From Sulfurovum sp. (GTDB lineage: Bacteria > Campylobacterota > Campylobacteria > Campylobacterales > Sulfurovaceae): 14,004 nt of DNA. Positions within the stretch are counted from its first letter, which is position 1. The number at the start of each line of letters is the position of its first letter. Where the stretch lies: NCBI GenBank assembly GCA_003978375.1, contig QNZW01000131.1:1-14004 (forward strand). The letters are read 5' to 3'. Positions 462 through 14,004 of the stretch are shown piece after piece. The position numbers and the translations under genes are program-made. A model generated the notes under the pieces. The model was not told the origin of the DNA and ran no database searches. It saw nothing but the letters and a program-made list of their open reading frames with translations.

Positions 462-467
462 CAATTT

Positions 468-473
468 ACTCCT
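468..473 (-). promoter_or_regulatory. Ribosome binding site of the secreted protein gene
   Basis: AGGAGT on the minus strand ends 6 bases before the ATG at 461. It selects this ATG over the in-frame ATG two codons later. Confidence 0.7.
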
Positions 474-525
474 GTTTTATATATTACTGTTGTTTATGTG
501 TTTAGATTTAACATTACTGTAGTCT

Positions 526-560
526 GATGACATACACATACACATACACACACTGTCATC
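526..560. repeat. Hexanucleotide microsatellite framed by a 7-bp inverted repeat
   Basis: Three perfect copies of CATACA (531-548) are followed by CACAC (549-553). The tract is bracketed by GATGACA (526-532) and TGTCATC (554-560), which are exact inverted repeats. In the minus-strand transcript this would be a 7-bp hairpin with the GT-rich repeat in its loop, 65-99 bases before the start codon of the secreted protein gene. Confidence 0.7.
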
Positions 561-740
561 TACGCGCCCTTACTCAATTAACCTTATATTAAGTTTTTTA
601 TTCATTGTTAACTCATATAGTATGAAAATTATTAAAAGTATTCTATTAAATAAGGATAGTCATACACTTTTAATCCATTATTTTAATAAATAAAATATAT
701 CCATACAATTAACAATTAATTGATCATTATTTTCTTTATA

Positions 741-794
741 TTAAAATGATAATAATGTCATAACTGGTATAAATAAATTCTTTATTTTTTTCAT
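741..794 (-). CDS. 17-codon mini-ORF behind riboswitch copy A (leader peptide or signal-peptide remnant)
   Basis: ATG at 794 to TAA at 741 encodes MKKIKNLFIPVMTLLSF. GGAG at 803-806 sits 8 bases before the ATG, a good spacing. The peptide has a KK-start plus a hydrophobic run like the first part of a Sec signal peptide, and then stops. It begins about 20 bases after the 3' end of aptamer A. It could be a real regulatory leader peptide, or the surviving start of a gene whose body has been lost. I see no continuation of an exported protein after the stop. Confidence 0.4.
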   Translation of the reverse strand: MKKIKNLFIPVMTLLSF

Positions 795-811
795 AAATTT
801 TACTCCACTGT

Positions 812-882
812 TAGGCAACTCAGCCATCTAAAATATTTTAGACCTGTAGCTTTCCGTCCTACCCTCACAGGCAGTTTGGCTT
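812..882 (-). promoter_or_regulatory. Cyclic-di-GMP-I (GEMM) riboswitch aptamer, copy A (gene-proximal)
   Basis: On the minus strand the element starts with GCCAAAC (880-874). A P2 hairpin follows (CTGCC / GGTAG around a GTGA tetraloop), then GACGGAAAGC (858-849). The P3 stem comes next, with a perfect TCTAAAAT/ATTTTAGA palindrome, and the element closes with CTGAGTTGCC. This is the order and spacing of the GEMM-I family. In the numbering of the Vibrio cholerae Vc2 structure (from memory), the ligand-contact bases G20 (880), A47 (853) and C92 (815) are kept. It is identical to copy B over 32 bases (849-880). P1 looks weak: the base in position 14 is A facing C93. The RBS of the 17-codon mini-ORF lies a few bases downstream, so translational control is possible. 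Confidence 0.85.
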
Positions 883-1088
883 TAGTATAATTTAATTATT
901 TAGAAAAGGTTTTTGATTAATTTTAAGAAGAAGAAAAAAACTCTTACATGAAGTTATATTTTTTTAAAAACTAAAACATAGTAAAACTATATTAAAAGCC
1001 CCTAAAAATTTATATTAAACTACGTAAAAATATATTACCTGCCCCCGGAAAACCTTTCTAAAATTTCAACTCAACAATTCTGAAACAT
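881..1088 (-). other. Spacer between the two aptamers
   Basis: This stretch is AT-rich and holds no plausible gene. It contains a G/C-rich island at 1038-1054 that can pair with aptamer B, and a weak hairpin (ATAGT/ACTAT, 978-990) followed on the minus strand by a T-rich tail, which could be a weak terminator. A TATACT box at 889-884 lies too close to copy A to leave room for its P1 strand, so I do not call a promoter there. Confidence 0.5.
1039..1054 (-). promoter_or_regulatory. Candidate anti-aptamer strand (expression platform) for riboswitch copy B
   Basis: Minus-strand GGTTTTCCG (1054-1046) can form nine consecutive pairs, one of them G-U, with CGGAAAGCC of the aptamer core (1134-1126). 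GGCAG (1043-1039) can additionally pair with CTGCC of P2 (1152-1148) in the correct nested order. The alternative fold would destroy the aptamer. A weak AT/T-rich tract follows the strand. This is inference from base complementarity only. Confidence 0.4.
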
Positions 1089-1166
1089 TAGGTAACCCGG
1101 CTGTCTATTTCATAAATAGACCCGTGGCTTTCCGTCCTACCCTCACAGGCAGTTTGGCATTTACGC
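1089..1166 (-). promoter_or_regulatory. Cyclic-di-GMP-I (GEMM) riboswitch aptamer, copy B (promoter-proximal)
   Basis: The parts follow the GEMM-I order: GCCAAAC (1158-1152), P2 with a GTGA loop, GACGGAAAGCC (1136-1126), an 8-bp P3 (GTCTATTT / AAATAGAC) and CCGGGTTACC. In Vc2 numbering G20 (1158), A47 (1131), C92 (1092) and G14 (1164) are kept. The normally G21-C46 pair is replaced by C21-G46, a compensatory swap. Compared with copy A, CGG/CCG becomes CAG/CTG and the neighbouring C-G becomes T-A, so both helices are preserved. G at position 20 points to cyclic-di-GMP rather than cGAMP. An extended -10 box lies just upstream. Confidence 0.88.
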
Positions 1167-1170
1167 TCAT

Positions 1171-1179
1171 AATATAGCA
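1171..1179 (-). promoter_or_regulatory. Promoter of the riboswitch leader
   Basis: Minus-strand TG-C-TATATT is an extended -10 box with TATATT at 1176-1171. It would start transcription near 1164, right at the 5' edge of aptamer B. No clear -35 is seen, as is usual for the vegetative promoters of this phylum. Confidence 0.5.
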
Positions 1180-1302: not shown

Positions 1303-4278
1303 TTAAAATGATTTCAAATATGTCATTGCTGTCGCAATAATGTCATCATCGTCTTTAGAGTGTGATTTGAGTACTTTACGTGCTTTGCCTTCTTCTCTAA
1401 ATTCTATAAAAACATTTTCACCATAGGAAGAGACTTTACTTATACCTTGTTCTCGTGCCAATACTTTCATGACAATCACATCTATAAATTGTCTCGTAAT
1501 GGTATCAAGTTTACCAAACCTATCTGCTATTTCTGCTTCTATTTCATACACTTCTCCTGTACTTTGACAAAGAGAAAGTCTACGGTATAGCTCAAGACGC
1601 AATCTATCTTCTTCTATAAGTTCTTCATTTAAATACGCATCTATTGAGAGTTTCATATCAATAGTATGTGCCACTTCTTTATCTTGTCCTGAAAGTTCTT
1701 TAATAGCATCTTCTAACATACGCAAATAAAGACTATAACCTATCTGTTTGATATGTCCAGATTGTGCTTCTCCAATAATATTACCTCCTCCACGTATCTC
1801 TAAATCATGAAAAGCAAGTACAGCACCAGATCCTAAATCTGAATGTGATTCTAGAGCGAGTAAACGGCGTTTGGCATTGTCACTAAGACGTTCTTTATCT
1901 GTAACCATAAAATAACAATAGCCTTCCATGCCTCCACGTCCTACGCGTCCTCGAAGTTGATGTAAATCTGCTATCCCAAAATTTTCACTTCCATCAACAA
2001 TCATCGTATTGGCATGAGGCATATGTATGCCTGACTCTACAATAGAAGTAGAAAGCAATACATCATACTCTCCATCTTCAAACTTCATCATTTCATCTTC
2101 TGTCTCTTTGGCTGATATTTTAGAATGAAGTACGGCGATACGTAACTTCGGTAATATCTCTAATAATATTTTTTTCTTCTCTTCAATCCCTGCAATGGAG
2201 TTAAAGACATAAAATATCTGTCCACCTCTACGTAATTCACGAAGAATTGCCTCTTTAATCACTTTGTCATCATAAGATTTAACAAAGGTTCTTACCCCTA
2301 AACGTTCCATGGGAGGTGTAAGAATCTCAGAGAAACTCTTGACCTCTGAAAGTGCCAAATTCAATGAACGTGGTATAGGCGTAGCAGACATTGAGAGTAG
2401 ATGAATATCAATAGCTATCTCCTTAAGTCTCTCTTTTTGTTTTACGCCAAACTTATGTTCTTCATCGATAATCACAAGTGCAAGATTTTTAAATTTCGCT
2501 TTCAGTAATGCATGGGTTCCTACCACTACATCTATACTTCCACTCTCCAAACCATCTAAGGTTTGCTTTTTTTCTTTGGCTGTTGAAAATCTATCCAATT
2601 TCGCAACTTTAATACCGTGATTATAAAAACGCTCTTTTAGACTTTTGTAGTGTTGAGATGAAAGCAGCGTTGTTGGTGCTATCATCATTGCTTGATAGCC
2701 ATTTTTAATCGCTACGTACATCCCATTCATCGCTACTTCTGTTTTACCAAAACCTACATCTGCTGAGAGTAACCTATCCATCATTTTTCCAGAACTCATA
2801 TCATCAAGCATTGCATAAATAGCTCTTTCTTGATCTTCTGTATGCTCAAATCCTGCTTCAGACATAAAAATAGCATGTTCTTCCATATCTGACTTTAGTG
2901 CAATACCTTTCTTCAAATGCCGTTGCGCTGAAAGATTAATGATTTGTGAAGCAATAACAAAAAGTTTTTCTTTTACTTTGGCTTTAAGCTTTTTAAAGCT
3001 GGCTTTCCCCATGCGATCAAGCACTGGCAGTGTCCCACCTTCAGCAACATATCGATCTATCACTTCTAGATTAGACACAGGGATTAAGAGTGTATCCTCA
3101 TTTTGATACTGTATTACCACAAACTCAGAAAAAGATCCTAATACTTCTCTTTTTTCTATCCCTTTAAAAATACCTACACCATAGTTCTCATGTACCACAT
3201 AATCACCTGATTTCAATTCATCTAAAATAATAGACGCTTTTTTCGCCTTTTTACGTTTAATGGGTTTATTGAGTGAAAGAATAAGCTTATCCGAACCTAA
3301 AAGATTGACAATACCCTCTTGATAAACAAACTCTATATTTTCAAAAGAGTCTAATTCTGATCCCCTTACAATACTCTCATTTTTAGCAAGTATAATAATA
3401 TGCTTATCTTGATGTGACGCAAGAAGCTTGTTAGGATTTACAACTTCTAAATCACGATATTTAGAGCCTTCTGAAATAACAGGAAGTAAAAAATCTTTTC
3501 GTGGTATAAGTGGTTCGCTCAATGCATATATCTCTTTAAGTTCTTCATCTAAATTTGATGCCCATACGCCAGAAAATTGTTTCAAGGCACTCTCGCCTAA
3601 ATCCTCTAAATACCAAAGTCCTAAGGCATCTATATCTTTGACAAACGTATCATAACTACTTTGTTCACATCTCGATTTTAATGCTTCATATTGTGTTTTA
3701 TTTAATGCTAAAAATGTTGATGTAAAAGTAAATGATTCCAACTCATCGGGTAAACGTTTTTGAGAATTTTCATCATAATGTTGTATAGATTCTATCTCTT
3801 CATCAAATAATGAAAGACGATATGGTTTTAAAGCATCTATAGGATATATATCGATAATATCTCCACGAAAAGAAACTTCACCACGCTGTGCTGCAATGTC
3901 TGTAAAATGATATCCCCAATGATACAAAGTTTCTTTTAAATCTTGTAGCTTTATTGTCTGTGCAAACGCTATCGTTTTAGAAGCAAAATATTCTGGCTTA
4001 GGAAAAGGAATAAGTAGTGTTCTCAGTGGAGAGATGAGTACTTTTTTTTCTCTGCTTTGATGATAACCTAAAAGTTGCAAAAAAAGTGTTTGTACATCTT
4101 GTGTATATGCACGTAAATCTTCCCCTACACTTACACGTAAATCAGGCAAGACAAAGGTATCAAAACCAAGAAGTACTGCAACATCACGTATTTGCATCGC
4201 TTCTTTGTCATTGTTACAAATGAGTAGTTTTTCTTCAGTGAGTGTTTCTAAATATTCATATATATTACTTTGATACAT
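1303..4278 (-). CDS. mfd: Transcription-repair coupling factor Mfd
   Basis: Mfd is a cytoplasmic ATP-driven DNA translocase that releases RNA polymerase stalled at lesions and recruits UvrA. At 991 residues it is shorter than the E. coli enzyme (1148) but similar to those of its own phylum. Residues about 1-330 are the divergent UvrB-like region. Residues 355-412 are the CarD-like RNA polymerase-interacting domain (GDYVVHENYGVG...LLIPVSNL). The SF2 helicase motor follows, with Walker A ADVGFGKTE (506-514), DEEH (605-608), SAT (631-633) and QLRGRVGR (774-781). A C-terminal Mfd domain ends the protein. It begins with ATG at 4278, without a convincing Shine-Dalgarno, 60 bases after folC. It is the last gene of the leuS-lptE-folC-mfd run. 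Confidence 0.97.
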   Translation of the reverse strand: MYQSNIYEYLETLTEEKLLICNNDKEAMQIRDVAVLLGFDTFVLPDLRVSVGEDLRAYTQDVQTLFLQLLGYHQSREKKVLISPLRTLLIPFPKPEYFASKTIAFAQTIKLQDLKETLYHWGYHFTDIAAQRGEVSFRGDIIDIYPIDALKPYRLSLFDEEIESIQHYDENSQKRLPDELESFTFTSTFLALNKTQYEALKSRCEQSSYDTFVKDIDALGLWYLEDLGESALKQFSGVWASNLDEELKEIYALSEPLIPRKDFLLPVISEGSKYRDLEVVNPNKLLASHQDKHIIILAKNESIVRGSELDSFENIEFVYQEGIVNLLGSDKLILSLNKPIKRKKAKKASIILDELKSGDYVVHENYGVGIFKGIEKREVLGSFSEFVVIQYQNEDTLLIPVSNLEVIDRYVAEGGTLPVLDRMGKASFKKLKAKVKEKLFVIASQIINLSAQRHLKKGIALKSDMEEHAIFMSEAGFEHTEDQERAIYAMLDDMSSGKMMDRLLSADVGFGKTEVAMNGMYVAIKNGYQAMMIAPTTLLSSQHYKSLKERFYNHGIKVAKLDRFSTAKEKKQTLDGLESGSIDVVVGTHALLKAKFKNLALVIIDEEHKFGVKQKERLKEIAIDIHLLSMSATPIPRSLNLALSEVKSFSEILTPPMERLGVRTFVKSYDDKVIKEAILRELRRGGQIFYVFNSIAGIEEKKKILLEILPKLRIAVLHSKISAKETEDEMMKFEDGEYDVLLSTSIVESGIHMPHANTMIVDGSENFGIADLHQLRGRVGRGGMEGYCYFMVTDKERLSDNAKRRLLALESHSDLGSGAVLAFHDLEIRGGGNIIGEAQSGHIKQIGYSLYLRMLEDAIKELSGQDKEVAHTIDMKLSIDAYLNEELIEEDRLRLELYRRLSLCQSTGEVYEIEAEIADRFGKLDTITRQFIDVIVMKVLAREQGISKVSSYGENVFIEFREEGKARKVLKSHSKDDDDIIATAMTYLKSF

Positions 4279-12150: not shown

Positions 12151-12693
12151 TCAAGGAATTTTCCAGTCAATATCTGTACCTTTAAATTCATGATAATAGG
12201 GTGCTCCATTAAATAGTGGTATGCCCGTTTTTATATTCCATTGTACATTTTCACAAATAACATAGTATTTGCCTTGCTTAAAGCATGGATTATAAAACTC
12301 AGGCATACCTCTTGTTAACTTTCTATCATATTTTGGATTATAGTAACTCCCAAAGTTTTTTTGGAAATAGACTTTTCTTTTTGTATCTTCTTTTAAAAAT
12401 TTATTTTTTGATCTTTGCGTTTTAAAGAGATAAATAGAAAAATGTATATGCTTTATATTATTATCGCACATGATTTCATGGCGTACATCTTTACTAGTTG
12501 TTTCTACTAACCCACCTGCTACATCTAAAGTACATGATGCATTTTTAGCAACATCTCTTGCTAAGGCACCTATAGAATCACCATTGTCTAATTTTTTATC
12601 AACCAAGAACTCAAATAATAAAGATGAATAATTTAAAAAAAGATAAACAAGTATCAATAACAAAACCAATATAATTTTTATAGTTTTCATCAT
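12151..12693 (-). CDS. Membrane-anchored four-cysteine protein of unknown function, paralog 2
   Basis: I do not recognise this 180-residue protein. One N-terminal membrane segment or uncleaved signal (about 5-23) puts the rest in the periplasm or outside. It is a paralog of the gene directly upstream. Shared features are an A-x-x-x-A-(R/K)-x-VAK-x-A-x-C block (43-54) and a C-terminal block CFK-x-G-x-x-Y-x-ICE (137-148), then G-x-x-x-FNG-x-x-(F/Y)-YH-x-F-x-G-x-D. Cysteines C54, C76, C137 and C147 match those of the paralog, suggesting two disulfides. The insert at about 100-130 is longer and basic/aromatic. The ATG at 12693 touches the stop of the upstream gene with no gap and has no RBS of its own, so translation is probably coupled. 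It converges on dnaX, 13 bases apart. Confidence 0.7.
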   Translation of the reverse strand: MMKTIKIILVLLLILVYLFLNYSSLLFEFLVDKKLDNGDSIGALARDVAKNASCTLDVAGGLVETTSKDVRHEIMCDNNIKHIHFSIYLFKTQRSKNKFLKEDTKRKVYFQKNFGSYYNPKYDRKLTRGMPEFYNPCFKQGKYYVICENVQWNIKTGIPLFNGAPYYHEFKGTDIDWKIP

Positions 12694-13173
12694 TTAGTTA
12701 ATCGTGTATTCAAGATCTTCTCCTGAGAATTGATGATAAAATTTTTGTCCGTTAAATATAGCTTTGCCATCACTATCTCGTGCCATAGAAGATTCACAAA
12801 TTAAATAGGCAGGTCCTTTCTTAAAGCATCTTTGATGCTTACCATTATATGGTTTATTCCTATTTTTTATCATTTCATCTCTTGTTTTATCATTTAAAAA
12901 AACATATATGATAAATGAAGCATATGTATTGGTGAAAAATATGCAACTAAAGTCAAGTAGAGTTTTTTCTTTATTGGAATCAAAATTAATAAAAGCCAAC
13001 GAAACATCGTCACATTTTGCCTCTTTTGCTACACTCTTTGCCAAATAAGTAGCAGATCTCCGGCTATCAGGCTTAGTATCTAATGGTACATAAAGAGGCA
13101 ATAAATAAAGTTTATCTAATATTAAGACAATCATTACCAGTAATACTATATCTATGAGTTTGATTTTTAACAT
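12694..13173 (-). CDS. Membrane-anchored four-cysteine protein of unknown function, paralog 1
   Basis: The protein has 159 residues and is unrecognised. A hydrophobic N-terminus (about 7-28) anchors or exports it. The shared A-x-x-LAKSVAKEAKC block (41-54) and the CFKKGPAYLICE block (116-127), followed by GKAIFNGQKFYHQFSGED, align with paralog 2. Cysteines C54, C77, C116 and C126 correspond to the four in paralog 2. GGAG lies 8 bases before the ATG at 13173. It follows the EF-hand gene after 67 bases and is fused stop-to-start with paralog 2, so the pair is almost certainly co-transcribed. The two proteins may form a complex, or be diverged immunity- or sensor-like extracytoplasmic proteins; nothing seen decides this. 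Confidence 0.7.
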   Translation of the reverse strand: MLKIKLIDIVLLVMIVLILDKLYLLPLYVPLDTKPDSRRSATYLAKSVAKEAKCDDVSLAFINFDSNKEKTLLDFSCIFFTNTYASFIIYVFLNDKTRDEMIKNRNKPYNGKHQRCFKKGPAYLICESSMARDSDGKAIFNGQKFYHQFSGEDLEYTIN

Positions 13174-13240: not shown

Positions 13241-14004
13241 TCAAAATCCTCTTCTTTGGCTCTTTGAAAATTCTTCTAAGTCTATCTTTTTATTTTGATT
13301 TAAGTCTACTCTATTAAACTCTTCTTCTCTTGATATCATAGCTATATCATTTTTATCTATACTAGTACTCTTATCATAATCAAATGTATCAAATATTTCC
13401 ATATTTAACTTACAATTTTGTGCTTCTTCTACAATAAGTCGCATATCTTTATTTGTATCACACATGGAGAACAATATACCTACCTGTGCTTCTTTTGGTA
13501 AGCCATCCATTGCATTAATATCTAACTTATCTTCATCTCTACCTATAGATAATCTAGGAGGAAGTTTAGTCACTTTGGCAATTTCAAAACTTTTTTGATA
13601 ACTTGCACTATAGTTTAAAAACATATCAGAACTCATATGACATTGATTTGAGGTAAACTCAACAAGTGTTAGTTGTCCATCTTTGTTTTTATCACATAAA
13701 GTCAAGGTATCTTTAAAGCTATCTAGTTCTTCTTTATGACTTGAAAGCATCCCCTTATATTTGCTATCTGCACTCTCAAAAAACGACAAATATTCTTGAA
13801 TTGAAAGTAAATTATCTTTATTTTTATCCATACTCTTAAATTCATCTTCTCTAAGAAAACATTGTTTGTAACTACGTTGAGACAAATCCCATTTTGATTC
13901 TGGCACCAGTTCATCTAGTGCAATAAAGTTATCATTATTTTTATCACATACTGTCATCACTTCACTTGCCACATTTTTAAACATTTTGTTCTCTTTATCT
14001 TTTG
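13241..14004 (-). CDS. Multi-EF-hand calcium-binding protein, possibly truncated at its N-terminus by the window edge
   Basis: At least 247 residues from the ATG at 13984. Six EF-hand loops are visible at 14-25, 53-64, 98-109, 176-187, 202-213 and 227-238, each with D at position 1 and an acidic residue at position 12. Loop 5 has D rather than E there. A cysteine directly precedes loops 1, 3 and 4 (C13, C97, C175) and another follows each (C42, C115, C191), so disulfide-bridged units are likely, which implies an extracytoplasmic protein. No signal peptide is seen at this ATG. The frame stays open to the edge (codons K-D-K-E-N-K precede the ATG) and only a weak GAG-type RBS is present, so the true start may lie outside. 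It precedes the four-cysteine paralogs. Confidence 0.75.
   Translation of the reverse strand, partial: KDKENKMFKNVASEVMTVCDKNNDNFIALDELVPESKWDLSQRSYKQCFLREDEFKSMDKNKDNLLSIQEYLSFFESADSKYKGMLSSHKEELDSFKDTLTLCDKNKDGQLTLVEFTSNQCHMSSDMFLNYSASYQKSFEIAKVTKLPPRLSIGRDEDKLDINAMDGLPKEAQVGILFSMCDTNKDMRLIVEEAQNCKLNMEIFDTFDYDKSTSIDKNDIAMISREEEFNRVDLNQNKKIDLEEFSKSQRRGF

Follow-up and report, generated by a model that had tools for sequence, protein, structure and literature searches.

Tandem c-di-GMP-I riboswitch aptamers in the leader between mfd and an exported-looking protein gene of Sulfurovum, and the recurrence of such pairs in the genus

The stretch of DNA analysed here (the window) comprises an entire contig of 14,004 nt from a Sulfurovum MAG, the assembly of which amounts to 1.58 Mb and is 79% complete. 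The genes that frame the region of interest both lie on the minus strand. The upstream neighbour is mfd, encoding the transcription-repair coupling factor (1303-4278; Pfam TRCF, CarD_TRCF_RID and DEAD), and the downstream gene encodes the first 153 residues of an exported-looking protein before it is truncated by the contig end (3-461, with AGGAG at 473-469). A pair of riboswitch aptamers is located between the two. Elsewhere in the window, the product of 13241-13984 carries several EF-hand calcium-binding motifs, and next to it are encoded two small proteins (12151-12693 and 12694-13173) with no Pfam family at E <=0.001. Conservation of the mfd neighbourhood was surveyed at 62 of 80 loci, using a sequence pattern that misses two of 83 known aptamers; among the 57 loci with at least 300 nt behind mfd, only two (L057 and L058) have an aptamer there, so the neighbourhood is not a conserved one. 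The locus as a whole yielded no orthologue.

The product of the gene at 461 has a signal-like start followed by about 120 residues. Its 153 visible residues match no Pfam family at E <=0.001, and a search extended to E 10 adds a single weak match, to GrlR (E 0.0013, under its cut-off). No relatives of solved structure were found up to E 10, no match was detected in 60 other genomes of the genus, and a search restricted to proteins of similar length returned only the fragment itself. Because the protein runs off the contig, export is likely, judging from the N-terminus, and 'adhesin' and 'repeat protein' are guesses. Thus, of the secreted adhesin-type repeat protein put forward in the preliminary description of this DNA, the exported-looking N-terminus stands, whereas the adhesin repeats are backed by neither a Pfam family nor a structural relative.

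Both aptamers are on the minus strand and belong to the c-di-GMP-I class. The upstream copy, aptamer 1 (1088-1168), scores 68.8 bits against the Rfam covariance model RF01051, and the downstream copy, aptamer 2 (811-890), scores 66.5 bits (E 1.8e-11), in each case far above the curated cut-off of 35 bits. The firm part of the analysis is that both are complete c-di-GMP-I aptamers standing in one intergenic leader. The covariance-model search, which the preliminary description had named as the check on its claim of two complete GEMM-type aptamers with the same orientation, bears that claim out, as it does the placing of the pair ahead of the gene starting at 461, since both copies are upstream of that ORF and on its strand. 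The same model has matches in none of 14 control genomes, and the rest of the Rfam search, up to E 1, returned only two snoRNA-family matches (E 0.07 and 0.11), below their cut-offs. The window's own assembly contains six RF01051 matches in all, along with two GGDEF protein matches, one of them partial.

In their details the two copies resemble other RF01051 riboswitches in score, consensus pairs, GUGA loop and contact bases, with only the usual variation otherwise. All 22 consensus pairs of aptamer 2 are standard, as are all 15 of the core pairs checked in aptamer 1, and by sequence both carry the GUGA loop on P2. The ligand-contact bases, which we take to be G20, A47 and C92 in the numbering of the Vibrio Vc2 RNA, are kept in both aptamers, according to alignments inspected by eye. 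An A in place of G at position 20 indicates c-AMP-GMP. PMC9262584 describes G20 as a selectivity factor among cyclic dinucleotides. Given the kept contact bases, both aptamers probably bind c-di-GMP.

A complication is that Rfam clan competition labels aptamer 1 as RF03167 (c-di-GMP-I-GGC; 1167-1087, 61.2 bits, cut-off 59), a model under which aptamer 2 reaches 56.7 bits and stays below the cut-off. The RF03167 consensus reads GGACGCGAA, with a G, whereas both window aptamers read GGACGGAAA, with an A. The middle G of 'GGC' presumably corresponds to position A47, and the equivalent base is A in both aptamers (in aptamer 1 by alignment, in aptamer 2 by sequence). Assignment of aptamer 1 to the 'GGC' variant was rejected, since it lacks the presumed diagnostic G and its RF01051 score is higher (68.8 versus 61.2 bits). 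On sequence grounds, both copies are treated as ordinary c-di-GMP-I aptamers.

The aptamers are separated by 197 nt (891-1087), with a start-to-start distance of 278 nt. The preliminary description had given about 210, which is close, with coordinates that were right to within a few bases; the identity over 32 bases that it reported is exact. This 32-mer contains the P2 stem. No ORF of at least 60 amino acids lies between the aptamers, and the ATG frames in the gap run for one and two codons. Overall, the two copies are 77% identical, and each is at most 65% identical to the four other aptamers of the same genome. An aptamer from another genome (L148) is 78% identical to aptamer 1 and therefore as close to it as aptamer 2 is. 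The better argument for duplication is the shared 32-mer, which among 187 sequences compared occurs only in loci overlapping the window.

Tandem arrangements of this class are well known. Bacillus thuringiensis is said to carry a triple tandem c-di-GMP-I riboswitch, Bc3-5. The main text of PMC9481103 counts 347 doublets and 12 triplets for c-di-GMP-I, the most of any class, and discusses them as giving more digital responses or as two-mechanism pairs. The tandem riboswitches considered there are complete aptamers separated by at most 300 nt with no intervening ORF, and the window pair has these properties; like those tandems, it consists of complete aptamers of the same class in one leader, less than 300 nt apart and with no ORF between them. 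It differs from the tandems of that text in having no recognised terminator after either copy, a short ORF behind copy 2 and a host in the Campylobacterota. The main text of PMC12452182 reports enrichment of c-di-GMP riboswitches in Thermodesulfobacteriota and Deinococcota, and Campylobacter or epsilon terms are absent from the main texts of both papers. Searches of the open-access literature turned up no report of c-di-GMP-I riboswitches in Sulfurovum or Campylobacterota; supplementary lists may already include the genus pairs.

Aptamer 1 is directly preceded by a candidate extended -10 element, TGCTATATT (1171-1179, minus strand), which is a consensus match only. Given the usual spacing, a transcript from TGCTATATT would start near 1164. 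The element at 1179-1171 was not picked by a two-hexamer promoter scan, and the promoter-like matches within 400-1400 occur in a chance number (7 versus 7.4 expected). Those on the minus strand are at 1346-1317, within the mfd end, and at 773-746, in the leader; the latter is on the strand of the exported-protein gene, which could thus have its own start.

The spacer is predicted to fold into one long imperfect hairpin (891-1068, minus strand; -35 kcal/mol, z -3.2, matched in stability by 2 of 200 shuffles). Its inner A/U-rich hairpin (940-1031, minus strand; -20.3 kcal/mol) enters a U-rich stretch (940-925) and has a terminator-like outline. A simple terminator scan of 400-1400 passed no candidate and did not recognise this inner hairpin (1031-940), and a terminator scan ranked against shuffles places both window leaders at chance (p 0.38 and 0.50). 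An alternative fold is predicted in which the core CGGAAAGCC of aptamer 1 pairs with the downstream GGUUUUCCG. In the minimum-energy fold of 1168-1010, the arms of this possible ligand-free helix on the minus strand are CGGAAAGCC (1126-1134) and, opposite it, GGTTTTCCG (1046-1054), with nine pairs including one G-U. Before ligand, the aptamer 1 fold and the alternative fold are 0.6 kcal/mol apart. The fold of 1168-1010 has a z of -3.0, with 0 of 200 shuffles as good, a figure that includes the aptamer itself. Overall anti-aptamer pairing between aptamer 1 and its leader is borderline (z -1.6, equalled by 10 of 200 shuffles) and so suggestive only. Pairing of the aptamer 1 flanks is at p 0.74 against shuffled flanks. 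Helices between the A-rich start of the aptamer and downstream U runs were set aside as trivial.

The surroundings of aptamer 2 are of another kind. A ribosome-site-like GGAG (803-806, minus strand) is found 4 nt behind it and is followed, after an 8-nt spacer, by an ATG at 794. This ATG, 16 nt behind the aptamer, opens a 17-codon ORF, MKKIKNLFIPVMTLLSF (741-794, minus strand), which, together with its ribosome-like site, was overlooked in the preliminary description. Such a site with an ATG within 40 nt of the aptamer occurs in 1.8% of 5000 shuffles. The two downstream stretches are dissimilar: aptamer 1 is followed by a long hairpin with its U-rich run, aptamer 2 after only 4 nt by this ribosome-like site. 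That counts against the published reading of same-class tandems (PMC9481103, main text), under which both copies would use the same kind of platform in the same direction and make the exported-protein gene respond more steeply. The identical 32-nt core and the recurrence of pairs in the genus suit such pseudo-cooperation; a further point against it is that no terminator was found between 811 and 461, either by the simple scan or by the shuffle-ranked scan, which covered the first 130 nt. On balance this reading is unlikely, if still to be reckoned with.

The closing helix of aptamer 2 can run through GGAG, which is 74-90% paired with the aptamer formed. It is also 62-92% paired when that constraint is lifted, and the minimum folds of the region are identical with and without it, so ligand need not alter the site. 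By eye, the pairing that hides GGAG partly uses the CC expected to contact the ligand. The closing helix through the ribosome site makes a good-looking fold but was rejected as a signal, the flank pairing being no better than that of shuffled flanks (p 0.36). When the flanks are shortened, aptamer 2 takes a minimum fold other than that of the aptamer. The 738-902 fold is no more stable than its shuffles (48 of 200 as good), and anti-aptamer pairing for aptamer 2 is absent (130 of 200 shuffles as good).

Some 350 nt separate aptamer 2 from the start of the exported-protein gene. This leader is long for the sample of aptamers described below: in the 39 of 66 other rows where the same pattern finds a first start, the distance has a median of 112 nt and a range of 18-374 nt. 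The frame of the short ORF has five stops in the 346-nt leader (465-810, minus strand) versus 17 and 14 in the other frames, a shortage that, against 2000 shuffles, has a P of 0.014 for that frame and 0.037 when the best of the three is taken. The leader may accordingly be decayed coding sequence, and the short ORF is most likely a remnant of the original target of aptamer 2. Leader matches in other genomes, with up to 12 candidates scored per genome, are short outside the aptamers (best E 1.3e-5). Closer to the gene, 530-550 contains 3.5 copies of the hexamer repeat ACATAC (region 530-553); judged by eye, most of the repeat sits in the loop closed by a GATGACA/TGTCATC stem (560-526). Short tandem repeats of this kind can slip, switching expression.

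Control of the gene at 461 directly by the pair is unproven, with the short ORF and some 350 nt intervening. It is conceivable that only aptamer 1, or neither copy, serves this gene, which would have its own promoter, and that aptamer 2 and what follows it are relics. The stop-poor frame of the 17-codon ORF (P 0.014 to 0.037), the length of the leader compared with the median of other loci, the promoter-like match at 773-746 and the lack of detected relatives of the exported-looking protein are all in keeping with this; against it, aptamer 2 is undecayed in score, in its 22 standard pairs and in its contact bases, and promoter-like matches in the region are at chance level. We regard it as doubtful. 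Appreciably less probable is that the ORF encodes a functional leader peptide, such that c-di-GMP would set ribosome loading and translation would set, for example via Rho, whether polymerase reaches the gene. The low chance frequency of the ribosome-like site near aptamer 2 and the distance of some 280 nt from the short-ORF stop to the gene speak for a leader peptide. However, a decayed gene fits the stop-poor frame equally well, and no conservation is seen: one other sampled locus, L168, shows an ORF of 24 codons at 18 nt from its aptamer, which by eye is missing from the related L164. Taken with the site behind aptamer 2, the stop-poor frame makes a decayed gene the simplest reading and a leader peptide the bolder one. 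Least probable of all, in our estimation, is a full two-level device in which aptamer 1 would act on transcription via the spacer hairpin and aptamer 2 on loading of the leader ORF, and thereby on whether polymerase reaches the exported-protein gene.

The reading preferred here, to which we attach a probability of roughly 45%, is a duplicated tandem pair directed toward the gene at 461, with aptamer 1 as an attenuator and aptamer 2 acting at a ribosome site, both leaning toward OFF. One aptamer would have been duplicated to give the pair in a single leader. The transcription unit would start just upstream of aptamer 1, at about 1164, and run toward the exported-protein gene. Aptamer 1 would act on transcription by way of the long spacer hairpin entering the U-rich stretch and, when ligand is lacking, a competing helix would tie up its core. 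Aptamer 2 would act on the ribosome site of the 17-codon ORF, because its closing helix can run through GGAG. Ligand would then promote the terminator-like hairpin and keep the ribosome site hidden, which would make both copies OFF-leaning, one at each level. The exported-protein gene would now lie downstream of what is left of aptamer 2's original target. The direction of control, ON or OFF, is the weakest step, and since most fold and terminator tests are borderline or at chance, the order of an attenuator and then a ribosome site, both leaning toward OFF, is held with low confidence. The steeper response or two-level control suggested in the preliminary description is possible but unproven, as prediction of the platforms is weak and the tests on them mostly come out at chance level.

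The pair is not an isolated case. The window's own genome and 36 relatives of the same genus contain at least 255 c-di-GMP-I matches, nine of which fall below the cut-off; 35 of the 37 genomes have matches, up to 21 per genome. These are lower bounds, since in some genomes only some of the candidates were scored and many assemblies consist of many contigs. In a draw of 150 genomes from across the phylum, at least ten have a match, the window's own genome among them, a figure that is likewise a lower bound because the filters were stricter. Same-strand pairs number at least 16 (counted by eye; 32 matches) and are found in 12 of the 37 genomes (G000, G001, G003, G005, G012, G014, G016, G023, G027, G028, G029 and G036, with three each in G003 and G027). 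With 347 doublets already counted in the main text of PMC9481103, and these pairs in the genus besides, the novelty that had been supposed for the tandem arrangement finds no support. Since tandem pairs are known and recur in the genus, the window pair is real but mostly ordinary.

The gaps within pairs span 12-197 nt, that of the window pair being the widest and the other 15 lying between 12 and 141 nt. These 15 pairs (L117-L131) are of the same class, and most of their first ORFs have a hydrophobic, often lipoprotein-like N-terminus; where a first ORF was called (14 of the 15), its distance from copy 2 is 25-178 nt, and the downstream genes differ. The two copies of L123 are 99% identical to each other. 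Between L118 and L127, identity is 97% for copy 1 and 94% for copy 2 by position, and 70-72% across copies, which indicates that pairs can be kept. In both L118 and L127, TATAAT occurs 18 nt ahead of the second aptamer, so these pairs may have a promoter per aptamer.

Downstream sequence was analysed in a non-random sample of 67 rows (16 pairs and 51 single aptamers, mostly top-scoring), covering 83 of the 255 matches and yielding 81 leaders after two aptamers with too little downstream sequence were dropped. A leader strand that unfolds the aptamer was rejected as a general feature (mean z -0.2 over 81 leaders, four below -2), as was an intrinsic terminator behind the aptamer as a genus-wide rule, which reaches p <=0.05 in 13 of 81 leaders, the window's two not among them, where about four are expected. 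For L169 and aptamer 2 of L127, the downstream leader is more complementary to the aptamer than it is in the window, with 1 of 200 shuffles as good in each case, making them candidates for a real anti-aptamer platform. L132 and L144 have a hairpin and U-rich run behind the aptamer, with a first strand (AATAG) that is common to the aptamer closing helix (by eye), an arrangement that is possibly a simple ON switch in the genus; the terminator scan gives p 0.017 for one of the L132 leaders and p 0.23 for the second L132 leader and for L144. At L087 and L102, in two MAGs and some 2.0 kb downstream of mfd, the 3' half of the aptamer (CTCAGACCGCCGGGTTA) is repeated 33 and 38 nt later and can, by eye, pair with the 5' half; this half copy might serve for strand exchange or be the leftover of a former pair.

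The first ORFs behind the sampled aptamers are mostly exported-looking. After six of the 67 rows were dropped for want of a callable ORF (>=60 residues), a strong hydrophobic N-terminus is seen in 46 of 61 first ORFs, that of the window included. As a rough yardstick, it is seen in 31 of 78 complete ORFs of at least 100 residues at the same loci, a count that includes the targets. By eye, many of the first ORFs encode lipoproteins or large exported proteins, and a few are PAS-domain or response-regulator-like.

The window pair is thus genuine and recurrent in the genus, and its link to the exported-protein gene is unproven. The abundance of these riboswitches across the genus is more interesting than any single pair. 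Combined with the mostly exported-looking first ORFs, it suggests that a relative of Campylobacter and Helicobacter has a large surface regulon under RNA-based control. The genus also offers many natural pairs in which the direction and the value of doubling can be tested. If the two-level device is true, it would be a riboswitch-controlled leader peptide, in a genus where c-di-GMP-I riboswitches may govern a good part of the surface programme.
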